NCBI RefSeq assembly: GCF_019931195.1
Contig: NZ_JAIOUO010000002.1
Span: 744,001-808,000, forward strand
DNA: 64,000 nucleotides
DNA from: Marinobacter sp. F4216
Lineage (GTDB): Bacteria; Pseudomonadota; Gammaproteobacteria; Pseudomonadales; Oleiphilaceae
Reading direction: 5' to 3'
In this document: one piece after another, positions 55,661-58,719 of the stretch
Layout: the number at the start of each line of letters is the position of its first letter
Numbering within the stretch: the stretch's first letter is position 1
Notes under the pieces: generated by a model
The model's input: only the letters and a program-made list of their open reading frames with translations
The model's database searches: none
What the model was told of the DNA's origin: nothing
Program-made: the position numbers and the translations under genes

Positions 55661-56587
55661 ATGAGTAACTGGCTGGACAAAATCATGCCGAGCAAAATTC
55701 GCTCGGACTCCAAGCAACGAACCGGTGTGCCGGAGGGGCTATGGAAAAAGTGCCCCAAGTGCGGCGCCTTTCTCTATAAGCCGGAGCTGGAGAAAAACCT
55801 TGATGTTTGTCCCAAGTGTAACCATCACCTGAGGGTCGCTGCGCGGCGTCGTCTCGATATTTTCCTCGATCCCGGTGACCGTGTGGAAATCGCAGCGGAT
55901 CTGGAGCCCTGGGATCGCCTGAAATTCAAAGACAGCAAGCGCTACAAGGATCGGTTGTCCCAGGCACAGAAGGCCACCGGGGAGAAAGACGCGCTTGTGG
56001 TGATGAAGGGTGCGACTATGGGTGTTCCACTGGTTGCCTGTGCCTTTGAGTTTAACTTCCTGGGTGGTTCCATGGGGCAGGTGGTTGGCGAAAAATTCGT
56101 CCAGGCTGCCAACGTTGCGCTGGAAGAGCGGATTCCCCTGGTGTGTTTCTCTGCCAGTGGTGGCGCTCGCATGCAGGAAGCCATCCTGTCTCTTATGCAG
56201 ATGTCGAAAACGGCGGCTGTGTTGGAACGCATGAAACAGGAAGGTATCCCATACGTGTCGGTGATGACTGACCCGGTATTTGGTGGCGTATCCGCCAGTC
56301 TTGCCATGCTTGGTGACCTCAATATTGCCGAGCCGAATTCTTTGATCGGCTTTGCTGGTCCACGGGTGATTGAGCAGACGGTGAGAGAGAGGCTTCCGGA
56401 AGGCTTCCAGCGCAGTGAGTTTCTGGTAGAGCACGGTGCCATCGATATGATTCTGCACCGCCATCAGATGCGCGAGCGCATTGCGCATCTATTGGCCAAA
56501 TTTACCGCGGCAGAACGACCGGGCACGGAAGAGCCAATTGAATTCGAAGTCAGCGAAATGCCGGGATCTGATGGCGCGGTGGAATGA
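55661..56587 (+). CDS. accD: acetyl-CoA carboxylase carboxyltransferase subunit beta (AccD)
   Basis: It transfers carboxyl from biotin to acetyl-CoA together with AccA, the first step of fatty acid synthesis. The 308-residue protein has the N-terminal zinc finger Cys31, Cys34, Cys50 and Cys53, then the crotonase-fold domain with [19 protein letters not shown] (Gly-Gly oxyanion loop) and [20 protein letters not shown]. The length and motifs are those of a normal active AccD. It overlaps folC by 17 bases. A degenerate copy of its residues from about 61 onwards is fused to the folC product downstream. Confidence 0.96.
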
Positions 56588-58583
56588 GCGTGATGCCAGC
56601 TCTCCGGAACCGCCCGGGGCTGGCGCCACTGTCGACCGGTGGCTTACCTATCTGGAAGCTATCCATCCCAAAGAGATAGATCTTGGCCTCGACCGTGTTT
56701 TACTGGTGTTGCGCCGACTATTCCCGCGGAAGCCAGATGCACGAATCATCACGGTGGCAGGTACTAATGGCAAGGGCAGCACGGTTGCATCCATAGAGCG
56801 ACTGCTCCTTTCCTGTGGTCGTAAGGTTGGTGCCTACACCTCTCCCCATTTGCAGGTCTACAACGAGCGGGTCCGCCTTAACGGACGTGACGTTGAAGAT
56901 CGTCGCCTGATTGCAGCATTCGAGCGTGTTGAAGAGGCTCGTCGAAACGTTTCCCTGAGTTACTTCGAATTCGGTACCCTCGCGGCATTCGTAGTGTTCG
57001 ACGCCGCTGGTGTTGAAGACTGGATTCTTGAGGTGGGTCTTGGCGGGCGCCTGGATGCCGTCAACGTGCTCGACGCTGATCTTGCCGTTATCACTTCCGT
57101 GGATATCGACCACGTTGCCTTCCTTGGCGATAACCGGGAGGTCATCGGCTTCGAAAAGGCCGGTATTCTTCGCCCGGGTATCCTCGCCGTGTGCGCGGAT
57201 GACAATCCGCCCCAGTCGATTCTGCAGCAGGCCGAGGCCCAGAAGGTCGATCTGGCGTTAGTGGGCCGTGATTACCGCTTGTATGAGGACCGCGGGATTA
57301 CCGGCAATTTGTCGCCGCAGATTTTGCTGGACGAGAAGGGGTGGCAAGTTTCGTTGCCAAATGGTCCGTTACCCGTGTCAAGTGTGGCGGCGGCCGTGGT
57401 GGCGGTGCGCCGCCTTGAGCCGGACATCAGCGAGCGCATGGTTGAAAGCGCTCTGGCTGGCCTGAAGGTTCCCGGCCGTTTCGAGCAGTTGGGGGAGCGG
57501 CCCGCAGTGTTTGCTGATGTTGGCCACAACCCCCATGCAGCGCGCTGGCTGGCGGGCCGCTTGCTGGCCCGTAAGTATTCTGGATGCAGAGTGTTGGCGG
57601 TATATGCTGCTCTGGCGGACAAAGATGTGGCAGGCGTGTTTGCCGCCATGGCGCCGGCGGCCGACAGGTGGTGGGTGGCTGGCCTGGATGTGCCCCGCGG
57701 GATGTCTTCGGTCGAGTTGTTTGATCAGGCCCATCAGTGTGGGCTCACTGGTGTTGAGAAGGTCGAGACGGTATCCGATGCAATACGTGCGGCTCTTGAT
57801 GAGGCGTGCAGCAACGACATCATTATCGTGTTTGGCTCGTTTTTTACGGTTGCCGAGGCTCGCGCCTTGCTTGCCCACCCGACAGCGCGGCAGCGGCTGG
57901 ATGAGTTTCTTGATCCGGACGGTCGTTCCGAGTTGAGCGTTTTCGATCAACAAGGGACCTCGAGCTGTGTGGCCTTTCCGGGCTCCTATGTCGATGACCA
58001 TGCCCTGGCCCAGGATAGGACGGGCGAGCAGGAGTCCTTACTTGCCATGAGCGGAACCTGTCTTGGTAACCCGGTGGTCGCTTGTGCTTTCGAGCATGGT
58101 TTTTTGGGTGGCACACTTGGTGCGGTAGCGGGTGAGGTGTTTGCACGTGCAGCGCGCTACGCGCTGGAGATGCGGGTTCCCCTCGTCTGTTTTACGGCCA
58201 GCGAGGGGGCAAGGATAGAAGAGGGTATGGGCTCCCTCATGCAGATGGCGAAGACGGCTGCATCGATAGAGAAGCTCCACCAGGAGGGTGTTCCCTACAT
58301 TTCCGTTCTTGCCAACCATGTGTCCGGAGAGGTTTGGGCCAGTCTTGCGGTTCTTGGTGATATCAACATTGCCGAATCCGGAGTACGGGTCAGTATGGCG
58401 CCATTGGCGCTTATGGAGCAGGGGGCCCTGGACGGAGACGCACAGCTGAGGGATGCCGAGCAGCTCCTGAGTCATGGTGCGGTGGACATGGTGGTTGATC
58501 GCCTGGATATGCGCACCTCCATTGGGCGCTTGCTGGGGAAGTTCGGGTCCGCGGCGTCGTCTGGTGAGGTCAGCGAAGGCTGA
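56571..58583 (+). CDS. folC: FolC (folylpolyglutamate/dihydrofolate synthase) fused to a degenerate AccD-like domain
   Basis: A 670-residue protein from ATG at 56571 (GGGA upstream); FolC is usually 420-440 residues. Residues 1 to about 435 are a normal Fol[21 protein letters not shown]-loop [50 protein letters not shown] and the usual end [10 protein letters not shown]. Residues about 438-660 then match Acc[12 protein letters not shown] (Acc[12 protein letters not shown]), [58 protein letters not shown] and [17 protein letters not shown]. The zinc finger is missing, the AccD Gly-Gly is Glu-Gly, and [11 protein letters not shown] is not kept, so carboxyltransferase activity is unlikely. No stop or frameshift separates the parts. 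Confidence 0.93.
57882..58552 (+). repeat. accD-derived segment inside folC (diverged duplication)
   Basis: This stretch encodes residues 438-660 of the folC product and corresponds to accD from about 55841 to 56530. By eye, about 66 of 107 residues (roughly 60%) are identical from Acc[14 protein letters not shown] to LGDLNIAE; outside that core similarity is lower. The copy begins just after the position of the AccD zinc finger. It is in the same orientation, with the folC core between the two copies. Confidence 0.85.
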
Positions 58584-58628: not shown

Positions 58629-58719
58629 AACTTTCAGCCTTTGTGTTATGTCAGTATCGCGGTTAGTATCTTTTGCGATAAAAAAACGCAGAATGGTTTT
58701 CAGACAGGAGTGTGGGATT

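Follow-up and report, generated by a model that had tools for sequence, protein, structure and literature searches.

A probably inactive AccD-derived domain, maintained by purifying selection, at the C-terminus of FolC in a small group of Marinobacter

The stretch of DNA analyzed here (the window, 64,000 nucleotides from Marinobacter sp. F4216) contains the neighborhood trpB-trpA-accD-folC-dedD-cvpA-purF, within which accD lies directly upstream of folC and the end of the one gene shares 17 nt with the start of the other (Table 1). We know of no functional reason for this adjacency. Rather than ending with FolC, the downstream frame runs on without a stop into a segment that resembles AccD, an in-frame fusion that had been predicted from the DNA of the window alone and that we find again in seven further genomes, the proteins of all eight being 667-675 residues long. 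The upstream accD is intact, as had likewise been predicted: its product scores 413 bits against TIGR00515 (cut-off 317.45) and contains the zinc ribbon PF17848. That accD and folC are neighbors has long been known (PMC2395257). The neighborhood is thus a familiar one, and what we describe here is likely to be a pseudoenzyme domain in a new fusion, no description of a FolC-AccD fusion having been found in the open-access PMC literature searched.

Table 1. Features of the accD-folC locus in window coordinates.
Feature	Position	Strand	Basis or remark
accD, intact carboxyltransferase beta subunit, 308 aa	55661..56587	+	TIGR00515 and PF17848
folC::pseudo-accD fusion	56571..58583	+	one 670-codon open frame; same architecture in 7 further genomes
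FolC part (dihydrofolate/tetrahydrofolate synthase)	56571..57863	+	TIGR01499, NF008101; FolC tails of relatives
pseudo-AccD extension, 239 aa	57864..58580	+	homologous to AccD 61-288, without zinc ribbon; model; Foldseek
first oxyanion loop, SEGAR in the window	58200..58214	+	Gly-Gly in AccD and in 6/8 extensions
second oxyanion loop, Gly-Glu	58326..58331	+	counterpart of AccD Gly208-Gly209
reworked segment matching AccD 227-251	58383..58454	+	consensus match; pLDDT under 50 at 612-623

The gap between folC and dedD holds a sigma70-like element (window positions 58636-58672) made up of TTGAG, 17 nt, and TTAGTATC or TTACTATC. An element of this kind is found directly 3' of folC in 63 of the 115 same-genus loci examined, with constant spacing, and across all loci (1.15 Mb in total) the pattern matches that strand just 65 times. 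The window genome and G056 have the TTAGTATC half alone. The element is perhaps the promoter of dedD-cvpA-purF.

The FolC part of the fusion is a full domain, scoring 282.7 bits against TIGR01499 (cut-off 162.65) and 371.6 bits against NF008101 (cut-off 360). The P-loop GTNGKGS is present in all eight fusions, and GTNGKG is invariant across 48 aligned sequences. In unfused relatives FolC stops soon past an EAR motif, 13 residues after it in G003 and G066, whereas the fusion has a further 239 C-terminal residues of AccD origin. The window genome encodes one FolC above the curated cut-off (next match 35.9 bits), one AccA (next match 25.8 bits) and one AccD, for which the next match, at 173.5 bits, is the extension itself. 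As FolC is single-copy in an assembly that is 99.93% complete, folate synthesis must depend on the fusion, to judge from this assembly.

When the extension is compared with the window's own AccD by BLASTP, 106 of 228 residues are identical (46%, E 3e-66) over AccD residues 61-288, and in the best 107-residue stretch, AccD 121-227, the count is 65/107 (60.7%), which agrees with the roughly 60% first judged by eye. Against TIGR00515 the extension scores 174.9 bits (173.5 in the genome search), under the cut-off that AccD passes, and the best E-value among the eight extensions is 2.4e-79. The zinc ribbon PF17848 was found neither in the extension, which starts at AccD residue 61, nor in the fusion as a whole, so the missing zinc finger of the original prediction is borne out. 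An AlphaFold model of the extension alone (pLDDT 78, pTM 0.82) is predicted to adopt the crotonase fold, as AccD does, and the best matches that Foldseek returned for it from the PDB are the E. coli CT-beta chains 8uz2_H (TM 0.81, E 5e-22) and 8uz2_D (TM 0.82), with TM values of 0.79-0.82 over the E. coli CT-beta chains. The model of the full-length fusion (pLDDT 84, pTM 0.83) is confident for FolC and for the core of the extension, and pLDDT falls under 50 at residues 1-8, 460-469, 483-485, 511-514, 612-623 and 666-670.

Resemblance to AccD is distributed unevenly along the extension. We took as near-invariant those AccD columns conserved in at least 97% of 118 genus AccD proteins (from 118 of 120 genomes, those whose AccD frame is split, G066 and G072, being excluded) and in at least 8 of 10 outgroups; there are 129 such columns, and 58 of them are unchanged in all eight extensions. 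Among the changes found in every extension are Gly209 to Glu (FGGV to xGEV), Ala174 to Gly and Leu228 to Arg or Lys, and R235 and R242, both Arg in 118/118 AccD, are gone from all eight. Gly209 is likewise Gly in 118/118 genus AccD, and together with Gly208, which every extension retains beside the new Glu, it corresponds to positions 204-205 of the E. coli chain 2f9y_B, a pair that we take to form an oxyanion hole. The original prediction had noted a Glu-Gly in an oxyanion loop. This is correct for the first loop of two extensions, in which Gly167 has become Glu (SGGAR to SEGAR), but not as a common trait: Gly167-Gly168 is retained in the other six, and what all eight share is the Glu at position 209. 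In the six less diverged extensions, agreement with the AccD consensus is 83% in loop 2 (207-226), 78% in loop 1, 48% in segment 227-251 and 37% in segment 77-94; in the two extensions of the window lineage (G000 and G056) the corresponding values are 68%, 65%, 12% and 8%. It is this last pair that has the second Glu, in the first loop, and it also sits on a very long branch of 2.16 substitutions per site and shows 44-46% identity to its own AccD, which has meanwhile been conserved (dN/dS 0.022).

The homologous MdcD-MdcE pair indicates what such changes might mean. According to the structural report (PMC5534430), the oxyanion hole there consists of the main-chain amides of two MdcD residues, Val121 and Gly162, the active site lies at the subunit interface, where the alpha6 helices of both subunits make a lid, and an Arg of MdcD is near the CoA pyrophosphate. 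Using approximate positions from the ends of the matches, Val121 and Gly162 fall near AccD 169 and 210 or near 174 and 215, depending on which end sets the offset, and AccD 227-251 would include the counterpart of helix alpha6, by position rather than by superposition. With the zinc ribbon absent, Gly209 lost and the following segment rebuilt, catalysis by the extension is unlikely; judged from its sequence, the domain is very probably dead as an enzyme, much as had been suggested when it was first called a pseudo-enzyme.

The new Glu could also be read as the mark of a repurposed crotonase-fold domain, one that binds a CoA thioester or some other acyl compound and signals to FolC, whether by sensing this ligand or by an enzymatic activity that uses the shared residue. 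Hydratases of the crotonase superfamily use glutamates near the oxyanion hole, an analogy that would favor such a function, as would the fact that all eight extensions have this Glu next to a preserved Gly208 and that six have kept Gly167-Gly168. The disappearance of R235 and R242 from every extension and the reworking of 227-251 speak against it, as would the Arg that MdcD places near the CoA pyrophosphate (PMC5534430) if it is the counterpart of R235 or R242. On balance we regard repurposing of this kind as quite improbable.

The extension has a narrow distribution. We searched 124 Marinobacter genomes and recovered 120 accD-folC loci; there was no match in G064, G075 and G086 and a weak match alone in G077. 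Two of these loci (G090 and G112) were left out of the count because their contigs stop at folC or within it, leaving 118 informative loci. The fusion is present in eight of them (G000, G056, G050, G007, G008, G061, G092 and G002), and two of the eight genomes are single-contig assemblies. Mapping of the extension in relatives had been proposed with the original prediction, and the result is that close relatives do carry it. An assembly artefact is rejected, as eight assemblies carry the full-length frame. At the other 110 loci folC has no extension, and in three of these frames are broken: folC in G051, accD in G066 and both in G072. In these same three genomes accD, folC or purF is split in two frames, perhaps as a result of assembly errors; G066 also belongs, with G003, to those members of the group discussed below that have no extension.

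Beyond the genus, a search of the family (163 genomes from 16 genera) gave, among the matches listed, no further fusion and no other open frame over 400 codons, the eight known fusions scoring above every ordinary AccD among those matches. In an even draw of 390 genomes from the order, which included one of the eight fusion genomes, that of the window, the window genome was the sole fusion among the matches listed; a 758-codon row in G177, also among those matches, contains a stop.

The extension had a single origin: the eight sequences come together in a single clade (UFBoot 98), with a branching order that is not in conflict with a tree built from six operon proteins. In the operon tree all eight fusions fall within a group of ten genomes (SH-aLRT 92.9, UFBoot 83), for which support is 0.46 in a larger FastTree, and the eight genomes that remain when G000 and G056 are set aside are supported at 97/96. 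The two other members of the ten-genome group, G003 and G066, have an ordinary FolC of 444 residues without the extension and, with two of ten members lacking it, the domain is dispensable. Because G066 pairs with the fusion-bearing G007 (86.6/92; folC DNA 93% identical), the domain was lost or replaced in G066. G003 would have undergone a separate loss or replacement, unless it acquired the unfused state by recombination, a possibility raised by the similar FolC tails of G003 and G066 (EARRLLLP... and EARRVLLP...). Should the ten-genome group prove incorrect, the extension would have to be older or to have been lost more often. A recombination event also seems likely, from the DNA comparison, inside folC of G061: its first 600 nt share 91-99% identity with folC of G007 and G066 and the remainder 75-83%, while G007 and G066 are 91-96% identical along the whole length.

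As to where the extension came from, the accD immediately upstream is the likely source, and we infer that the route was a partial duplication. Homology to AccD sets in at its residue 61, a few positions past ...FTVAEAR of FolC, and AccD itself has ...RVAARRRL at that point; the two short motifs are alike, which suggests that the end of folC recombined with accD. No second folC remnant was found in the 260 nt downstream of the extension in any of the eight genomes, and a duplication would therefore have had to be followed by a deletion. Mean identities of the six less diverged extensions are 60.6-66.3% to genus AccD and 51.8-58.1% to the AccD proteins of ten outgroups, of which that of Tamilnaduibacter is the best (59.1-65.8%). 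For G000 and G056 the genus means are 45.4 and 46.1%, about the same as the outgroup means of 46.0 and 46.5%, and where the extension clade branches among the AccD proteins of the genus has no support (31-46). Taken together, these sequence comparisons do not favor a horizontal origin.

The selection acting on the extension was estimated as dN/dS from Nei-Gojobori counts. As dS is saturated in distant pairs, five close pairs from three groups were used; the three pairs among G008, G092 and G002 have branches in common and so do not count as independent. Alignment columns 1-51 were treated as the linker and those that follow as the core (Table 2). Over the whole extension dN/dS is 0.05-0.17, far below 1, and the extension is under purifying selection. 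Its constraint is similar to that on FolC, for which these pairs give 0.07-0.13, and weaker than that on AccD (0.00-0.03). In the core of G007/G061, where dS is 0.31 and unsaturated, 14.5 non-synonymous changes stand against 35.5 synonymous ones (Fisher p 1.9e-13).

Table 2. dN/dS of the extension and its parts in five close pairs.
Pair	Whole extension	Core	Linker
G007/G061	0.149	0.113	0.200
G092/G002	0.060	0.041	0.117
G008/G092	0.052	0.036	0.087
G008/G002	0.074	0.041	0.299
G000/G056	0.170	0.118	0.484

These values bear directly on the idea, entertained in the original prediction, that the extension is a neutral remnant of a duplication that happens to have stayed open. Its absence from two genomes of the group would be expected of such a remnant, and in the linker of G000/G056 taken alone constraint is not clear (p 0.057). 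Neutrality is nevertheless rejected by the dN/dS of the whole extension in all five pairs, and synonymous sites are saturated in several pairs, yet the frame is open in all eight genomes. In simulations of neutral frames under point mutations only, 2.7% were still open after 0.2 substitutions per site, a share that fell to 0.2% after 0.5. We therefore give the neutral reading almost no weight. An interrupted frame, absence of the fusion from relatives and a dN/dS near 1 had been named in advance as grounds for abandoning the original prediction; none of these appeared, with the frame open in eight assemblies, the fusion present in relatives and dN/dS far below 1.

The explanation that we prefer, with middling confidence, is that a selected and catalytically dead CT-beta domain serves as a docking or regulatory module on FolC. 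An ancestor of a small Marinobacter group would have acquired, by partial duplication, an in-frame copy of accD 3' of folC that ran from about codon 60 almost to the last. The copy would then have lost catalysis, being without a zinc ribbon, with Glu in its second oxyanion loop and the segment past that loop rebuilt, and would have kept its crotonase core. Purifying selection has preserved the copy since. Attached to the cell's only FolC, such a non-catalytic module could display a surface like that of CT-beta, with AccA as the most plausible partner, and might either compete with AccD or keep FolC near acetyl-CoA carboxylase. The original prediction had likewise proposed that the extension may bind AccA or AccAD and so may tie folate synthesis to fatty acid synthesis.

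Docking on AccA is the simplest proposal since CT-beta does so and many conserved residues persist, but the reworked segment at the position of the lid and the two group members without the domain weaken a simple story of AccA binding. The reworked segment matches alpha6 by position, and as alpha6 of MdcD adjoins that of its partner (PMC5534430), contact with AccA may be impaired. In the window lineage, where the extension is very diverged, the partner or the role may have changed. From the sequences, AccA as partner seems to us a tentative proposal, somewhat short of an even chance, and a regulatory effect of the extension is less likely than that. More speculative still, and in our estimate rather unlikely, is that a crotonase module with a new, shared Glu in its oxyanion loop couples folate polyglutamation to the state of acetyl-CoA carboxylase, through competition with AccD for AccA or through sensing of a CoA thioester.

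The main rival to a docking module is a structural one, in which FolC came to need the extension for folding, solubility or oligomerization and acetyl-CoA carboxylase is not involved. Four residues separate the last FolC helix (424-434) from a helix of the extension (439-446) in the predicted structure of the whole fusion, which would fit such a role, as would the stronger constraint on the core than on the linker and the failure to maintain the segment past the second oxyanion loop. It is harder to reconcile with G003 and G066, which lie inside the group and manage with an ordinary FolC, and with the AccD polar residues R62, R64, E130, R170, E173, K183, R267 and R271, kept in all eight extensions, which upkeep of a fold alone may not need. 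A purely structural role is thus conceivable, if on the doubtful side.

Returning to the docking or regulatory module that we prefer, two known systems provide points of comparison. The plant BADC proteins are inactive analogues of BCCP that regulate acetyl-CoA carboxylase by direct interaction (PMC7212373), so this way of working exists, and by analogy a retained inactive relative of a carboxylase subunit could work in this way here also. The likeness is one of operation alone: BADC proteins are analogues of the biotin carrier and not of CT-beta, and their interaction has been reported, whereas the extension is known from sequence and model. AdmT of andrimid producers is, like the extension, a second AccD-like protein in a genome that also has accD (PMC13151354), and the existence of AccD duplicates that protect against carboxyltransferase antibiotics raises the thought that the extension might be a resistance paralogue or a decoy against such compounds. 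AdmT is located in the gene cluster of the antibiotic and gives self-resistance (PMC13151354), in contrast to the extension, which is fused to FolC in the trpB-trpA-accD-folC-dedD-cvpA-purF neighborhood and has an altered oxyanion loop, and we consider resistance a highly improbable function for it.

A selected fusion of FolC with an AccD paralogue is a concrete, removable handle on whether folate and fatty acid synthesis are linked at the level of proteins. If AccA binds the extension, bacteria would offer an instance of an inactive subunit paralogue that acts on acetyl-CoA carboxylase while fused to the enzyme of another pathway; if AccA does not, the fusion would illustrate clearly how an essential protein can come to retain a domain that is dead as an enzyme.
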